Part shown: in pieces, positions 5,040 to 26,307 of the stretch | How the letters are laid out: the number at the start of each line of letters is the position of its first letter | Numbering within the stretch: the first letter of the stretch is position 1 | NCBI GenBank assembly: GCA_027483385.1 | Contig: JAIXUT010000138.1 | Coordinates: 1-36,280 of the forward strand | Length of the DNA stretch: 36,280 nt | From: Alphaproteobacteria bacterium | Lineage (GTDB): Bacteria; Pseudomonadota; Alphaproteobacteria; UBA2136; UBA6156 | Direction of reading: 5' to 3' | Program-made: the position numbers and the translations under genes | The notes under the pieces: model-generated | What the model saw: the letters and a program-made list of their open reading frames with translations, nothing else | What the model was told of the DNA's origin: nothing | Database searches by the model: none

Positions 5040-5103
5040 ATTGGCACTTGGTTTGACCTTCGCCCCGCTTCAAGGCACGTTTCGCGCAACAGGGGGATAT
5101 ACC

Positions 5104-5844
5104 ATGAGCTTTGCTGATTTAACTGGATTAACCGCACTGGTAACAGGCGGCAGCCGCGGGCTTGGCCGCGCCACCGCCGAGCGCTTGCAGGGCTTAGGTG
5201 CCACCGTCATTATTCATGGTAGTACCGAAGCCACCGTGCAAAGTGCGGCCAAAGCCTTAGGCTGCCAGGGCATTGTGGCAAACCTGCTGGAAGCGGGCAG
5301 TGCGGAACGGCTGGCCGAAGAGGCGCTGGCGGCGGCGGGTGGGCGGATTGATATTTTGGTAAACAATGCGGGGATTACGCGCGATGGGCTGTTCGTGCGG
5401 CTTGGCGAAGAGGCGTGGGACGAGGTGATGGCGGTGAATGTTTCGCGTGTGATTGAACTGACCCGTGCCCTGCTGCCTGACATGCAAAAAAATGGTTTTG
5501 GTCGGATTGTGAACCTGACCAGCATCGTGGCCCACATGGGCAATGTGGGGCAAACCAATTACATCACCAGCAAGGCGGCGATTGGTGGCTTTACCAAAGC
5601 CTTGGCCAAGGAAGCGGCCCGCAAGGGCGTGACGGTGAATGCCATCGCGCCCGGATTTATTAATACCGATATGACGGCCAAAATCCCCGACACTATTAAA
5701 GAAGGCTTCGTGAAGCAAATCCCCGCCCAGCGCTTCGGTGAGGCCGCCGATATTGCCAATGCCGTGGCGTTTTTGGCCAGCCATGAAGCGGGCTACATTA
5801 CGGGGACGACGCTGCATGTGAATGGTGGGATGTATGTTGGTTAG
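5104..5844 (+). CDS. fabG: 3-oxoacyl-[acyl-carrier-protein] reductase
   Basis: NADPH-dependent reductase of beta-ketoacyl-ACP in type II fatty acid synthesis, a short-chain dehydrogenase. Visible motifs: the Rossmann TGGSRGLG (about residues 14-21), NNAG in the central strand, the catalytic Ser in NLTSIV, the YxxxK pair in NYITSKAA, and the C-terminal GGMYVG typical of FabG. The 246-residue length is normal. The start at 5104 follows AGGGGGAT; the frame is open upstream to 5041, but that part has no ribosome binding site and overlaps the preceding terminator region. It is not in a fab cluster here (no fabD, acpP or fabF), so another short-chain reductase role cannot be fully excluded. Confidence 0.9.
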   Translation: MSFADLTGLTALVTGGSRGLGRATAERLQGLGATVIIHGSTEATVQSAAKALGCQGIVANLLEAGSAERLAEEALAAAGGRIDILVNNAGITRDGLFVRLGEEAWDEVMAVNVSRVIELTRALLPDMQKNGFGRIVNLTSIVAHMGNVGQTNYITSKAAIGGFTKALAKEAARKGVTVNAIAPGFINTDMTAKIPDTIKEGFVKQIPAQRFGEAADIANAVAFLASHEAGYITGTTLHVNGGMYVG

Positions 5845-5870
5845 GAACGGGGTCGCGAGGAACTAGGAAC
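5842..5870 (+). repeat. AGGAAC heptad repeat downstream of fabG
   Basis: TAGGAAC (5842-5848), GAGGAAC (5857-5863) and TAGGAAC (5864-5870) follow or overlap the fabG stop. The same heptad, as GAGGAAC, occurs four times in nuoN at 26158-26185. This is a degenerate copy of that repeat type. Confidence 0.55.
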
Positions 5871-5883
5871 TAAGTCGGAAGCT

Positions 5884-6037
5884 GGGTCATTGCGAGGAGA
5901 GCCCATGTTGGGAAAGTTCATAAGCTTGAAGCGACGTGGCAATCTTTCTGCAAAACCTTGTCGTGAAGAACAGAGATTGCCGCGTCGGGCTGACATTTCA
6001 GGTACACTCGCATCCTTGCCTCTCCTCGCAATGACCC
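5884..6037. repeat. 154-bp palindromic repeat element upstream of nuoA
   Basis: The ends are perfect 18-base inverted repeats: GGGTCATTGCGAGGAGAG (5884-5901) and its complement CTCTCCTCGCAATGACCC (6020-6037). An inner pair, CGACGTGGCAATCT (5932-5945) and AGATTGCCGCGTCG (5974-5987), is inverted with one mismatch. The whole element could fold into a long hairpin. No transposase is encoded. It resembles short non-autonomous palindromic elements and fills most of the 237-base gap between fabG and nuoA. Confidence 0.8.
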
Positions 6038-14752: not shown

Positions 14753-16855
14753 ATGAATGCGCCTGCCGCCCAACCAAGCAAACCACCTGCCAGCGTGCCT
14801 GCCAGCGTACCAGAATTCCCGCCCGCGCCCGAAGGCATGGTGAATATGCTGATTGATGGCGCGCATATTGTTGTGCCGAAAACCTTTACCGTAATGAAAG
14901 CCTGCCAGCAGGCGGCCATTGAAATCCCCCACTTTTGCTACCACGAGCGCCTGAGCGTTGCGGGCAATTGCCGCATGTGCCTGGTGGAAGTGGTGGGGGC
15001 ACCCAAGCCCGTGGCCAGCTGCCATTGGCCTGTGGCCGAGGGCATGAAGGTGAACACGCAAAGCGCCATCACGCTGGAGGCCCGCAAGGGCACGATGGAG
15101 TTGCTCTTAATTAACCACCCGCTGGATTGCCCGATTTGCGACCAGGGCGGCGAATGCGATCTGCAAGACCAAGCAGTGGCGTATGGCACCGACCGCTCGC
15201 ATTACGGCGAACTGAAACGCGCCGTGGATGATAAGGAAATTGGCAGTAAAATCAAAACCGTGATGACGCGCTGCATCCATTGCACCCGCTGCGTGCGGTT
15301 CGCCACCGAAATTGCGGGGGTGGAGGAATTTGGCGCCACGGGTCGTGGTGAAAACATGCAGGTGGGTACGTACGTGGAGCAGGCCCTGCAAAGCGAACTG
15401 GCGGGGAATATGATCGATCTCTGCCCCGTGGGAGCGCTGACAAGTAAGCCCTACGCCTACACCGCGCGGCCCTGGGAGCTGAAGCGCACCAGCAGTGTGG
15501 ATGTACTGGATGCCATTGGCGCGCCGATTTTTATCGATACCCGCGCGGGCAAAGTGATGCGCGTGCTGCCCCAGGAAAATGCGGCGATTAACGAGGAATG
15601 GCTGACCGATACGGCGCGCTTTAGCTATGATGCGCTGGCCGCCAATCGCCTGACCACACCGCTGATTCAGGGTAAACCTGCCAGCTGGCCTGAGGCCTTT
15701 GCGGCAGTGAAAAAAATTCTGGCCAACGCGACTGGCAAGTTTGGGGTGGCGCTGGGCGATTTAAGCAGTGCGGAAGTGGCCTTTTCCGTGCAGCAGTTTG
15801 CAAAAATGCTTGGTGCGGCGCAACTGGCGGCGTTGCCCAATGGGCAGGCCACGGGGCTGCCCTTTACGCTGGCCATGCAGCTGGCCGAGTTTGACAAGGC
15901 CGAAGCCGTATTGCTGCTGGGCTGTAACCCACGGCGTGAGGCCCCGCTGCTGAACGTTCGGCTGCGGCGCGGGGTGCTGAAGCGTGGGCTGAAGGTTTAT
16001 AATGTTGGTGCAGTGGCCGACCTCACCTACGCCTATACCCAGCTTGGCGATACGGCTGCGGCGCTGGAAAAATTCCAGAGCGAAAAGGTTGTGCAGGTGA
16101 TTGTGGGGGCACAAACCTTGGCCCGTGCCGATGCCGCCGAGCTGCTGGCCGCCGCTGCCAAACTGGGCACCGTGCATGTGCTGGAAGCCAGCTGTGGGCG
16201 GATTACCGCGCAAGCGGTGGGGGCGGCGCAAGTGGCCGCCGATGAAGTGGTAAAGGCGTGGAAGGCGGGCAAGCTGCAAGCGTTGTGGCTGCACGGCGAA
16301 GATACGTTAAGTACCGAAGAGATTCAGGCAGGCAGTGGCGCAATTGTGTATGTGGGTACGCACCACACCGCGACTGCCAAGCTGGCCGAGGTCTGCCTCC
16401 CTGCTGCGACGTGGGCGGAAGAGGCTGGGCTGTTCATGAACGCCGAAGGCCGGGTACAGGAAGCCAAGGCTGCCGCGCCCGCGCCGTTGCAAGCCAAGGA
16501 AGCGTGGAAGATTTATCGCGCGCTTTCCGAAGAGTTGGGCCATACATTTGGCTGGAATACGTTGGGGCAACTGCGCACCGCGCTAGGGGCGGCGGTGCCA
16601 GCGTTTGCGCCAGAAATGGTTGGGGTGTGTCATCCCTGCGAAGGCAGGGATCTCCTTCCGATGGCGTTTGTGCTGGGCAAGTTTCAGCGTTATCAATTCC
16701 CCACCGAGATCCCTGCCTGCGCAGGGATGACAAAGAAAAAATTCACCGAGACCGTGCCCCAGTATTACCTCCGCAGCAGCTACCTCCAGCAGAGCGACTG
16801 GATGCACAAAATGCAGGATGAGGCGGGCACGGCCCAGATTAGGAAGGTGGCGTGA
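14753..16855 (+). CDS. nuoG: NADH-quinone oxidoreductase subunit G with in-frame palindromic repeat
   Basis: 75-kDa-type subunit of the peripheral arm, holding several Fe-S clusters. From the N-terminus: a Pro/Ala-rich extension of about 30 residues; the [2Fe-2S] motif CYHERLSVAGNCRMCLVEV and the Cys of ASCHWP; the His/Cys motif DCPICDQGGECDLQDQAVAYG in part; CIHCTRCVRF; and MIDLCPVGALTSKPYAYTAR, before the molybdopterin-oxidoreductase-like domain. Length is about 700 residues. Oddity: residues about 626-660 are encoded by a palindromic repeat (16628-16732) of 105 bases, inserted in frame near the C-terminus, after which the conserved QYYLRSSYLQQSDW tail resumes. The stop shares a base with the Nudix start. 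Confidence 0.96.
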   Translation: MNAPAAQPSKPPASVPASVPEFPPAPEGMVNMLIDGAHIVVPKTFTVMKACQQAAIEIPHFCYHERLSVAGNCRMCLVEVVGAPKPVASCHWPVAEGMKVNTQSAITLEARKGTMELLLINHPLDCPICDQGGECDLQDQAVAYGTDRSHYGELKRAVDDKEIGSKIKTVMTRCIHCTRCVRFATEIAGVEEFGATGRGENMQVGTYVEQALQSELAGNMIDLCPVGALTSKPYAYTARPWELKRTSSVDVLDAIGAPIFIDTRAGKVMRVLPQENAAINEEWLTDTARFSYDALAANRLTTPLIQGKPASWPEAFAAVKKILANATGKFGVALGDLSSAEVAFSVQQFAKMLGAAQLAALPNGQATGLPFTLAMQLAEFDKAEAVLLLGCNPRREAPLLNVRLRRGVLKRGLKVYNVGAVADLTYAYTQLGDTAAALEKFQSEKVVQVIVGAQTLARADAAELLAAAAKLGTVHVLEASCGRITAQAVGAAQVAADEVVKAWKAGKLQALWLHGEDTLSTEEIQAGSGAIVYVGTHHTATAKLAEVCLPAATWAEEAGLFMNAEGRVQEAKAAAPAPLQAKEAWKIYRALSEELGHTFGWNTLGQLRTALGAAVPAFAPEMVGVCHPCEGRDLLPMAFVLGKFQRYQFPTEIPACAGMTKKKFTETVPQYYLRSSYLQQSDWMHKMQDEAGTAQIRKVA
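16628..16732. repeat. 105-bp palindromic repeat inside nuoG
   Basis: The left arm begins TGTCATCCCTGCGAAGGCAG and runs to GATCT at 16653. The right arm, 16707-16732, ends CTGCGCAGGGATGACA and is the inverse of the left arm with one mismatch over 26 bases. The length is 35 codons exactly, so the nuoG frame is kept. The arms are translated as HPCEGRDL and EIPACAGMT. This is the short dispersed palindromic repeat type normally found between genes. Confidence 0.88.
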
Positions 16856-23293: not shown

Positions 23294-24850
23294 ATGCTGC
23301 TTTCTAGCCTCATCCTCCTTCCCATTACCACCGCGCTGCTGGTGCTGTTGGCGCCGCGGGGTTTAGCCAAACAGCTGGCGTTGTTGGGTGCTTTGGGCAC
23401 CTTGGCGCTGTGCGGGCCACTTTACATGGGCTTTCACCCCAACACAGCGGGGCTGCAATTTACCGAAAGCTACAGCTGGCTGCCTAGTTTGGGGGTAAAC
23501 TTTACTTTAGGGATTGATGGCATCGCGCTGGCGTTGCTGCTGCTGAACAACCTGCTCACGCCCTTGGTGGTGCTAGCCAGCTGGAAAGAGGCCCGCAACA
23601 CCCCCGCATTCATGGCTTGCTTGCTGGGCTTGGCGGGGTTGGTCAACGGCGTTTTTGCCGCCACCGACTTTATTCTGTTCTATGTGTTTTTTGAAGCGAG
23701 CCTGATTCCGCTGTATCTGCTGATTGGCTTATGGGGCGGCAAGGAGAGGGTTTATGCCGCGCTGAAGTTTTTCCTTTATACCTTCGCGGGCAGTGTGCTG
23801 ATGCTGGTGGCGGGCTTGTACTTGGGCACGCAGGCGGGGACGTTCGATTTCACCCAGTGGGGCCCTACGGCGCAGGCCTTGCCGCTGGGCATGCAGGTGG
23901 TGTTGTTTTTGGCATTCTTGGCGGCGTTTGCCGTCAAAATCCCGATGTGGCCGGTGCACACCTGGCTGCCCGATGCCCACGTGCAGGCGCCCACCGCAGG
24001 GAGCGTGATTCTGGCCGGTGTGCTGCTGAAGCTTGGCGCCTACGGGCTGCTACGTTTTAACCTGCCACTGTTCCCGGAGGCTGTGACGCTGCTCGCGCCA
24101 TATTTAATGTGGGCGGGGGCGATTGCGGTGGTGTACGCGGCCTTGGTGGCGTGGGTGCAGACCGATGTCAAAAAGCTGATTGCCTACAGTTCGGTGTCGC
24201 ACATGGGGCTGGTCACGATGGGGCTGTTTTCGGATACAGAAACGGGCCTGCACGGGGCGCTGTTAATTATGGTGAACCACGGGATTGTGAGTGCAGGGTT
24301 GTTTTTGGTGATTGGCATCATGTACGAGCGGCTGCATACGCGGGAGATGAAAAACCTGGGCGGCCTCGCGGCCTTGATGCCTGGCTACGCCTTTGCGTTG
24401 GTGGTGCTGATGCTGGCGGCAGTGGCGTTGCCCGGCACCAACGGCTTTGTGGGCGAGTTTTTGGGGCTGGCAGGCAGTTTTGCTGCGGCGCCGTGGGCCA
24501 CGGCTTTGGCCACCACGGGCGTGGTGTTTGGTGCCGTTTACATGCTGGTGTTCACGCGCAGCCTGTTGTTTCAGGCGCCCAGCCGCTTTGTGATGGAACA
24601 CAAGGCCGCCTGCACCGATATGAATCCGCGCGAATGGCTGGTACTGCTGCCACTGCTGCTCTTCATTCCCTTGCTTGGCATCAAGCCGCATTTGGCCATG
24701 GATTTATGGCGTGCACCCGTGGCGGCCTTGCTCGTTCAGCCCGTGGCTGCGCCTGAAGCCCCGGCGGGACTTGAAATAGGGGCGGGTACACCTATCAATC
24801 ATCAAAGCGTTTCTGCATCAACCCCCACAGTCAGCCCCACCCAGCCATGA
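23294..24850 (+). CDS. nuoM: NADH-quinone oxidoreductase subunit M
   Basis: ND4-like antiporter-type subunit. About 14 helices. Diagnostic sequence: LTPLVVLASWKEARNTPAFM, FYVFFEASLIPLYLLIGLWG (with the key Glu), PVHTWLPDAHVQAPTAGSVI, LAGVLLKLGAYGLLRF, WVQTDVKKLIAYSSVSHMGL and GTNGFVGEFLGLAG. Length 518 includes a C-terminal tail of about 40 Pro/Ala/Thr/Ser-rich residues (from about 478) beyond the last helix, longer than usual. The stop overlaps nuoN by four bases (ATGA). Confidence 0.96.
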   Translation: MLLSSLILLPITTALLVLLAPRGLAKQLALLGALGTLALCGPLYMGFHPNTAGLQFTESYSWLPSLGVNFTLGIDGIALALLLLNNLLTPLVVLASWKEARNTPAFMACLLGLAGLVNGVFAATDFILFYVFFEASLIPLYLLIGLWGGKERVYAALKFFLYTFAGSVLMLVAGLYLGTQAGTFDFTQWGPTAQALPLGMQVVLFLAFLAAFAVKIPMWPVHTWLPDAHVQAPTAGSVILAGVLLKLGAYGLLRFNLPLFPEAVTLLAPYLMWAGAIAVVYAALVAWVQTDVKKLIAYSSVSHMGLVTMGLFSDTETGLHGALLIMVNHGIVSAGLFLVIGIMYERLHTREMKNLGGLAALMPGYAFALVVLMLAAVALPGTNGFVGEFLGLAGSFAAAPWATALATTGVVFGAVYMLVFTRSLLFQAPSRFVMEHKAACTDMNPREWLVLLPLLLFIPLLGIKPHLAMDLWRAPVAALLVQPVAAPEAPAGLEIGAGTPINHQSVSASTPTVSPTQP

Positions 24851-26307
24851 ACCTTGCCCCGATGATTCCTGCCGCGCTCGACCCTGCCATTTTACTCGCG
24901 CTTGGCGCGCTGGCTACGCTGATGGTGGGTAGCTTTACCCGGCAGGCGTGGGTGGCGTTTTTGTTGGCGAGCCAGATTTTGTTGGCGGCGGGCATGATGT
25001 TGTTGCTCACGCCCGCCACCGGTGGCGTGGCCTTCGAAGTCGGGCCGCTGCTGCTGGCGTTCAGCCCGTTTAGCAACACGGCTGCTGTGCTTTTAATAGG
25101 GTTAAGCCTGCTGGTGTTGCCGTTGCTGTGGCATGGGTTTACGCCTGAACGCCGCCGCCCCGAGTTGGCGGTGTTGCTGCTGCTCGCCACCACCGGTGCC
25201 GTGTTGCTGCCTGCGGCCAACCATTTGCTGGCCTTTTATGTGGCGCTGGAACTGCTCAGTTTCCCGCTTTATATTTTATGCGCCTGGAACCGCGACGACG
25301 CCAAGAGCAGCGAAGCGGGGCTGAAGTATTTTGTGCTGGGCAGCCTGGCCTCGGGCTTAATGCTGTTTGGCATGAGCCTGTTGTATGCCGCCACGGGTGC
25401 TTTAGATTTTTCCACGCTCGCAACCTTGGCGCAACCCACGCCGCTGTTCTTGGTGGGGATGGCCCTGATGCTGAGCGGCGTGGCGTTTAAGCTTAGCCTC
25501 GTGCCGTTTCATTTCTATACCCCCGATGTGTATGAAGGCGCACCCACGCCCGTGACGGCACTGTTGGCGGCCTTGCCCAAGCTGGCGGTGGCGGCGCTGC
25601 TGGTACGCTTGCTGGTGGGCCCGTTGCATGGCCCCGCCACATTGGTGGCCGGGCAGGGGTTGGCGGTGCTGGCGGCGGCCAGTATGGTGGTGGGGGCCAC
25701 GCTGGCGATTGTGCAGGGGAACCTTAAACGCTTGCTGGCTTTTTCAACCATCGCCAACGTGGGGTTTGCCGTGGTGCCGCTGGTGGCTCTGGCAGGGCTG
25801 CCGCACGATGCCAACCATTTAGGCCTGATTGCCGCCACCAGCAGCGGCGCGATGTTTTACTTGGTGGTGTACGGGGTTACTTCAATTGGCCTGTTTGCCG
25901 CCTTGCAATACGGTGGTTTTGGGCAGGTGAATGATTTAAAAGGTTTGGCCAAGCGCCAGCCGATGCTGGCGACCGCATTGGGGGTGCTGTTGTTTAGCCT
26001 GGCGGGGATTCCTCCACTGGCGGGCTTTATGGGTAAGCTGCTGGCGTTTACCCCGGCGGTGCAGGCAGGCTGGGGGCTGCTGGTGCTGCTGGGCGTGGTG
26101 ATGAGCGTGGTGGCCAGTGCGTACAGCCTGTGGCTGGTGAAGGTGATGGTGTTTGATGAGGAACGAGGAACGAGGAACCAGGAACGAGGTCAACAGAATT
26201 ACCTAGGCTGGCTGGTGGGGTTTTGTGCTTTGCTGGTGGTGGTGCTTGGGCTGTTTCCAGCCCCGCTACATACCTTGCTGCTGGCGGCTGGGACGGCGAT
26301 TTACTAG
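24847..26307 (+). CDS. nuoN: NADH-quinone oxidoreductase subunit N with in-frame repeat
   Basis: ND2-like antiporter-type subunit of 486 residues. Signatures: LAFYVALELLSFPLYILCAW, AGLKYFVLGSLASGLMLFG, VPFHFYTPDVYEGAPTPVTA, GNLKRLLAFSTIANVGFA and LAGIPPLAGFMGKLLAF. Before the last helix the loop after VKVMVFDE contains ERGTRNQERGQQN, encoded by a run of GAGGAAC-type heptads (26158-26191) instead of the usual loop. The repeat lies in a cytoplasmic or surface loop and keeps frame. birA begins three bases after the stop. Confidence 0.95.
   Translation: MNLAPMIPAALDPAILLALGALATLMVGSFTRQAWVAFLLASQILLAAGMMLLLTPATGGVAFEVGPLLLAFSPFSNTAAVLLIGLSLLVLPLLWHGFTPERRRPELAVLLLLATTGAVLLPAANHLLAFYVALELLSFPLYILCAWNRDDAKSSEAGLKYFVLGSLASGLMLFGMSLLYAATGALDFSTLATLAQPTPLFLVGMALMLSGVAFKLSLVPFHFYTPDVYEGAPTPVTALLAALPKLAVAALLVRLLVGPLHGPATLVAGQGLAVLAAASMVVGATLAIVQGNLKRLLAFSTIANVGFAVVPLVALAGLPHDANHLGLIAATSSGAMFYLVVYGVTSIGLFAALQYGGFGQVNDLKGLAKRQPMLATALGVLLFSLAGIPPLAGFMGKLLAFTPAVQAGWGLLVLLGVVMSVVASAYSLWLVKVMVFDEERGTRNQERGQQNYLGWLVGFCALLVVVLGLFPAPLHTLLLAAGTAIY
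26158..26191 (+). repeat. GAGGAAC heptad run inside nuoN
   Basis: GAGGAAC at 26158-26164, 26165-26171 and 26172-26178, CAGGAAC at 26179-26185, then GAGGTC. It encodes EERGTRNQERGQ in nuoN. A degenerate copy of the same heptad lies at 5842-5870 after fabG, so this is a dispersed repeat rather than local slippage only. Confidence 0.7.

Follow-up and report, generated by a model that had tools for sequence, protein, structure and literature searches.

The window, a stretch of 36,280 nt that is one contig of a draft alphaproteobacterial genome (1.94 Mb in 233 contigs, 89% complete), carries on its forward strand the gene nuoN for complex I subunit N (24847–26307, 486 aa). The gene has homologs in 56 of the 61 genomes compared (the window's own genome and 60 relatives, one genome per species) and matches E. 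coli NuoN (3rko_N) at 8e-54; the closest named record found is a pond MAG, Alphaproteobacteria bacterium, matching at 79%. Within nuoN, at 26159–26189 on the forward strand, Tandem Repeats Finder (TRF), a lag scan and a triplet search locate a heptad array of five AGG triplets and four spacers, (AGG-AACN)x4-AGG, which reads AGG-AACG-AGG-AACG-AGG-AACC-AGG-AACG-AGG and measures exactly 31 nt. It is translated as EERGTRNQERG, residues 438–448 of NuoN as counted from the sequence. A final T in the third spacer would create an in-frame TAG stop; the base here is C, and T-ending spacers are frequent in other array copies of the same genome.

TRF reports positions 26158–26189 of the window with period 7, 4.6 copies and 92% matches, and the array is the sole region of the window detected at any lag from 4 to 12 (at least 17 of 21 matches). 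A period-7 row of any kind appeared in 1 of 40 first-order Markov shuffles of the window, and a row of at least 28 nt in none. The original prediction of a GAGGAAC-like heptad array translated inside nuoN is thus borne out far above chance, by these shuffles and by the genome counts given below. A two-copy heptad pattern with up to two mismatches matches the window four times against 1.34 expected, a number reached by 3 of 100 shuffles, and is weak evidence inside the window when taken alone.

In an AlphaFold2 model built with 26 NuoN sequences (mean pLDDT 88), residues 436–450 are without secondary structure and lie between helices 410–435 and 451–469, with a short helix at 472–484 following; the block 441–450 has a pLDDT of 53. 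The array had been placed ahead of the last helix, which holds for the last long helix. In the NuoN alignment this C-terminal loop also varies among relatives and is largely hydrophilic there, and homologs without the heptad have other loop residues, none sharing the array's residues without the repeat. The local length difference from seven homologs is only −3 to +2 residues, which suggests that the array replaced loop sequence more than it extended the loop. The NuoN array is most likely a neutral, translated passenger.

Dispersal of the AGGAACN unit

A second array lies in the window at 5843–5874 on the forward strand, detected by lag scan and triplet search. It reads AGG-AACG-GGG-TCGCG-AGG-AACT-AGG-AACT-AAG, that is, five triplets with two triplet mismatches and one 5-nt spacer, and its first AGG shares bases with the TAG stop codon that closes the forward-strand ORF at 5041–5844, putatively fabG, so that the degenerate heptad copy expected past fabG is indeed present. 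Just 3′ of it, a long stem-loop spans 5884–6037 with 18-nt complementary ends (of the type GTCATTGCGAGGAG...), and no further copy of it was found in the sampled stretches of the same genome.

The heptad is dispersed well beyond the window. Across the draft genome, AGGAACNAGGAAC has 20 matches at 15 distinct places and the reversed-pattern control has none, so the expected dispersal stands. Looking for runs of five AGG-like triplets spaced by 4 or 5 nt presupposes five triplets, although some elements (for example L003) carry a sixth; it gave 17 elements in the loci of this genome, comprising 14 of the 15 known places plus three more, two of the 17 lying in the window. The same search gave 26 elements in the related genome G005 and none in the stretches of G007 and G001. 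A second unit type, the 8-nt AGG-TNGCN, occurs in the window's own genome (G000), in G005 and in G008, mostly at most once per element and at varying position, and its irregular TNGCN spacer is seen repeatedly, at several G000 and G005 loci as well as in G008.

A three-copy pattern was matched in 5 of the 61 genomes, all of one family (5 matches in G000, 23 in G005, 2 in G009, and 1 each in G008 and G010), and among 385 evenly drawn Alphaproteobacteria the unit was matched in three (G000, G005 and G262), with one match, in G108, for the reversed control. These few matching genomes suggest that the AGGAACN unit is close to lineage-specific. In G262, another alphaproteobacterium, long heptad arrays lie at L274:1460-1547, L274:1580-1673 and L278:1496-1547 (88, 94 and 52 nt).

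It could be argued that chance alone makes the codons of an ordinary charged loop in NuoN look repetitive, or that the array is an artefact of draft assembly, and both the variable, largely hydrophilic loop of relatives and the fragmented, incomplete draft would allow for this. The 15 places against none in the control contradict it, as do the 40 shuffles without an array of at least 28 nt and the occurrence of period-7 arrays in six other drafts of the family, and we consider it very improbable.

Period-7 arrays across the family

The class as a whole was surveyed with TRF on about 1.33 Mb of stretches from nine genomes of the same alphaproteobacterial family, the window included. This survey yielded 120 period-7 arrays with 50 canonical units; 47 of the units do not belong to the AGGAACN group. 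Half of the arrays (60/120) measure 30–33 nt, with peaks at 31 nt (28 arrays) and 32 nt (18), and arrays of this size are typically five copies of one triplet with four 4-nt spacers. The length is common to many units: it is found in 39 of 82 arrays with non-AGGAACN units, in 39 of 80 arrays with GG or CC in the unit against 21 of 40 without, and in 50 of 100 arrays in ORFs of at least 150 aa against 10 of 20 elsewhere. As the peak is independent of G-tracts and of location in a long ORF, it argues against a quadruplex explanation and against frame selection as a general cause.

The peak is carried largely by G005, where 41 of 67 arrays fall at 30–33 nt, and the shares elsewhere are 5/11 in G000, 6/17 in G009, 5/10 in G010, 2/11 in G003 and 0/3 in G008. 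Shuffled stretches of G005 and G000 gave 0–2 period-7 rows per replicate, none of at least 28 nt. The sampling is biased in that 13 of 20 stretches of G005 and 12 of 20 of G000 were picked for AGGAAC hits, and several stretches from other genomes were picked for nuoN or an AGGAAC match. The G005 stretches not picked for AGGAAC (one of them picked for nuoN) still hold 18 arrays in 140 kb; the eight remaining G000 stretches (51.5 kb) hold none of the 120, and the window's own genome is therefore sparse in such arrays. No period-7 array was found in 520 kb of G007, where two period-14 rows are present, nor in 94 kb of G001.

The 31-nt form is not universal, as the 52-, 88- and 94-nt arrays of G262 demonstrate. 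The distant loci L058–L086 hold two period-7 arrays, of 31 and 25 nt, both in L085. This locus belongs to a Planctomycetota contig, on which L085:1466-1530 comprises a 31-nt array of five AGT triplets (AGT-TTTC-AGT-TGTC-AGT-TATC-AGT-TTTC-AGT) together with an inverted partner; the fold has an energy of −38.3 kcal/mol (z −9.4).

Arrays within core genes

Many arrays of the family are read in frame within conserved genes, which were named from Pfam domains (nuo genes also by homolog search) on 30 hand-picked ORFs, five of which matched no family. In G005 they lie in domains or linkers of MutL, SRP54 (Ffh), DNA polymerase A, sigma-54, 2-oxoglutarate dehydrogenase E1, PriA, a Mur ligase, a tRNA thiouridylase-type enzyme, lipoamide dehydrogenase and complex I NuoL/M/N. 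The array-bearing genes are those for MnmE, PolA and asparagine synthase in the window's own genome, NuoG, SufB and a class-V aminotransferase in G009, NuoL and PolA in G003, and dihydrolipoamide dehydrogenase and E2 acyltransferase in G008. Within complex I of the relatives, arrays are thus found in nuoL, nuoM, nuoN and nuoG too.

Counts of length and orientation cover only ORFs open through the array and cannot show frame retention, for which flanks were instead searched blind to frame. In 36 arrays both flanks fell on one homolog in the right order, and 32 of these join their flanks in frame, none of the 32 with a stop. The four that join flanks in different frames (L118:410, L136:3702, L139:9444 and L147:18323) possibly mark broken or frame-shifted genes.

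For the length comparison, 38 of 52 arrays, all on ORFs of the sampled stretches, were kept for having homologs of at least 140 bits. The other 14 had hits below 100 bits that were in part on the wrong strand, as for sigma-54 and the Mur ligase of G005, where Pfam shows the other strand, and length changes measured against G007 alone were left out of the counts because they included wrong-strand ORFs. The median local length difference is positive for 30 of the 38, zero for one and negative for seven; NuoM of G005 offers the clearest insertion, with +13 residues relative to 7/7 homologs. For 24 units both orientations are open, and with 22 of these the one in use gives the more hydrophilic peptide; AGGAACG-type units occur nine times in sense and never in antisense, a bias that fits protein-level selection among insertions.

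DNA polymerase I carries arrays at differing positions in the window's own genome, G003 and G005 (L108:13171-13199, L154:7717-7759, L154:8252-8269 and L092:12758-13322), that of the own genome just ahead of the QVHDELV motif. The dihydrolipoamide dehydrogenase-type genes of G005 and G008 carry different heptads (L096:12908-12941 and L180:13653-13679) at about the same residue, 244–255 and 247–256, both within Pyr_redox_2.

Different repeats in the NuoN and NuoG loops

The nuoG gene of the window (14753–16855, forward strand) also holds repeat DNA in a loop, namely a palindromic insert of about 100 nt at 16632–16731 on the forward strand, translated as HPCEGRDLLP...IPACAGMT. The original prediction had grouped it with nuoN as two complex I genes that took repeat DNA into loops, and this is correct as regards the loop and the repeat. 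The insert is nevertheless a different dispersed element, palindromic and unrelated to the heptad, with arm copies at three further places of its own in stretches L112 and L117 of the same genome.

The same loops are used by different heptads across the family. One NuoG loop holds three different heptads in G005, G009 and G010 and the palindromic repeat in the window's own genome, and no array or insert in G001, G003 and G007. The C-terminal loop of NuoN holds AGGAACN in the own genome and an array of AGG-AAAA/AATA units in G003. From the sequences compared, this reads as tolerant loops that would have been occupied repeatedly; as an alternative, an old array may have been converted to a new unit.

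Comparison with known repeats

Repeats of this kind are known, though little understood. A report of 2007 described heptamers as over-represented in bacteria (via PMC4679880 and PMC4692102); in most genomes heptanucleotides are said to outnumber every other class of long simple repeats, and polymerase slippage was proposed as their origin (Mrazek, 2007, as relayed in PMC4679880). According to PMC2700814, Geobacter metallireducens has four-heptad elements (GGGACCG/GGACCGG) at 49 places within and between genes, and class 3 sites (MTYCTGA) of which 15 of 16 consist of five tandem heptanucleotides; other site classes there are mostly pairs on opposite strands. The likeness lies in four or five tandem heptads, in multiple copies, within and between genes, and the nuoN heptad, being present at several places above chance, is likewise a dispersed heptameric tandem repeat. 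The differences lie in the unit (GGGACCG against AGGAACN), the phylum and the regulatory reading given to the Geobacter sites. We liken the two by description and claim no kinship; the accessible sections of PMC2700814 mention neither unit turnover between sister species nor a comparison of length over many units.

The heptamers of Xanthomonas and Nostoc (GGGAATC and GGGGAYT) also prefer four units, explained by G-quadruplexes in PMC4692102; they are G-rich and over-represented in non-coding DNA, whereas arrays of the present family are often in core genes. G-tracts of three or more in four units do not account for the array length in the present family, as the NuoN unit has only GG and the 30–33 nt peak is equal in units without GG or CC. 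In Beggiatoaceae, TAACTGA forms dispersed direct repeats of two to six copies with a patchy distribution over relatives, but as one fixed unit and mostly just upstream of start codons (PMC4679880).

As described in PMC2229807 and PMC6649704, the Rickettsia palindromic elements (RPE) of these Alphaproteobacteria are also dispersed repeats in frame in conserved protein genes, a property shared by the 32 of 36 arrays that read through without a stop. RPE are, however, stem-loop palindromes of 105–146 bp, whereas heptad elements in coding sequence span about 31 bp and mostly lack a partner; the NuoN copy has 31 nt, and an inverted partner accompanies 3 of the 38 coding arrays. The nuoG insert of the window is closer to RPE than the heptad arrays are. 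We found no precedent for a unit-independent 31-nt length in the passages of open-licence literature searched, and no report of translated heptad peptides in the same literature. Three features are new: a geometry of 31 nt whatever the unit, units that differ between related species, and the number of copies in core genes.

Hairpins and the possibility of selected sites

An inverted array lies no more than 150 nt away from 3 of 38 homology-supported coding arrays, against 8 of 20 arrays without a long ORF. Stop-containing units are found in 14 of the 38 against 18 of the 20, a contrast given no weight here since the latter class is partly defined by closed frames. Four inverted pairs folded as RNA gave −38 to −66 kcal/mol (z −7 to −13), and the two copies of the window fold no better than shuffles.

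The arrays might be selected binding sites or RNA elements, such as regulator sites, G-quadruplexes or hairpins, with the coding copies as by-products. The strong folding of the inverted pairs agrees with this, as do the published proposals of global regulator sites in Geobacter (PMC2700814) and of quadruplexes in Xanthomonas and Nostoc (PMC4692102). Fifty different units, a length peak at the same rate in units without GG or CC, the lack of any array in 520 kb of G007, 35 of 38 coding copies left unpaired and the unremarkable folding of both window copies all speak against it, and we regard this explanation as quite improbable.

Possible origin and spread of the arrays

We lean, with only slightly better than even confidence, to the explanation that the array in nuoN belongs to a dispersed element of about 31 bp, built of heptads and copied whole, its in-gene copies being filtered and the one in NuoN being neutral. 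Typically the element has five triplets (here AGG) with a 4-nt spacer (here AACN) in each of the four gaps, and one 8-nt AGG-TNGCN unit is often included; species of the family have heptad sets of their own. Whole arrays may be copied to new sites by some process, after which slippage by 7 nt at a time would homogenise or expand them. In genes, copies would survive chiefly in tolerant loops, given an open frame, a hydrophilic peptide and no inverted partner with which to form a hairpin. The dispersal, the common length over many units, the recurring TNGCN spacer, the flanks joined in frame, the mostly positive length differences, the preference for the hydrophilic orientation and the scarcity of inverted partners among coding copies all favour this explanation. 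Several results count against it, namely the NuoN array without net insertion, the negative median differences (7/38), the flank pairs out of frame (4/36), the half of all arrays that falls outside 30–33 nt, the large share of G005 in the length peak, the AGGAACC arrays of G262, at 52 and 88 nt, and the negative searches for a transferring enzyme and for target-site duplication given below.

Alternatively, each array could have started as a chance heptad with a short direct repeat at its flanks and lengthened in place, 7 nt at a time, through replication slippage. Loops of 7 nt would escape mismatch repair, and a gain of three heptads (+21 nt) would be the first growth to preserve the frame, by which four units would be favoured. 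Period 7 does dominate other lags in G005, G009 and G003, arrays start and end with the same triplet, and a slippage origin of heptamers is the proposal of Mrazek (2007), as reported in PMC4679880. Against this stand the recurrence of one unit at many loci (the AACGAGG class makes up 21 of 67 arrays in G005 and the AACTAGG class 9 of 11 in G000), the length peak that is equal without a long ORF, where frame cannot select, and net in-gene changes that are not centred on +7 aa. Since units and the same irregular TNGCN spacer are common to multiple loci and to genera, copying of whole arrays is simpler than independent local slippage, which we hold to be unlikely.

As to the means of copying, the Y1 (RAYT-type) transposase PF01797 was found in none of 11 family genomes, all incomplete drafts, and in 5 of 14 control genomes, so that the transposase expected with REP/BIME sequences mobilised by RAYT was not seen in these family drafts. 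The reverse transcriptase domain PF00078 was found in one of the 11, namely G000, at L273 (G000:C133:1712-2365) in an open frame of 581 aa. With these counts, spread by reverse transcriptase or RAYT was rejected as a common cause. Target-site duplication was rejected as well, because the two flanks share a word of at least 5 nt in 6 of 60 arrays of 30–33 nt, a rate equal to the 10% of permuted pairs.

A wider reading, which we offer as conceivable though doubtful, is that the arrays form a widespread class of minimal mobile elements for which geometry matters and sequence does not. Any triplet would do, usually in five copies 7 nt apart (31 nt, or 32 if one unit has 8 nt); some machinery that counts units would make and move them, and lineages would switch triplet and spacer but retain the geometry. 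It draws on the Planctomycetota array with its inverted partner and takes the Geobacter elements as a foreshadowing.

Implications for the family

The family offers a natural experiment, in which array-rich G005 (18 arrays in 140 kb) can be set against array-free G007 (none in 520 kb). Repeat DNA is here turning into loop sequence of core enzymes, and can mislead alignment and annotation. If the geometric reading were true, the arrays would keep supplying core enzymes with new hydrophilic peptides in their loops.
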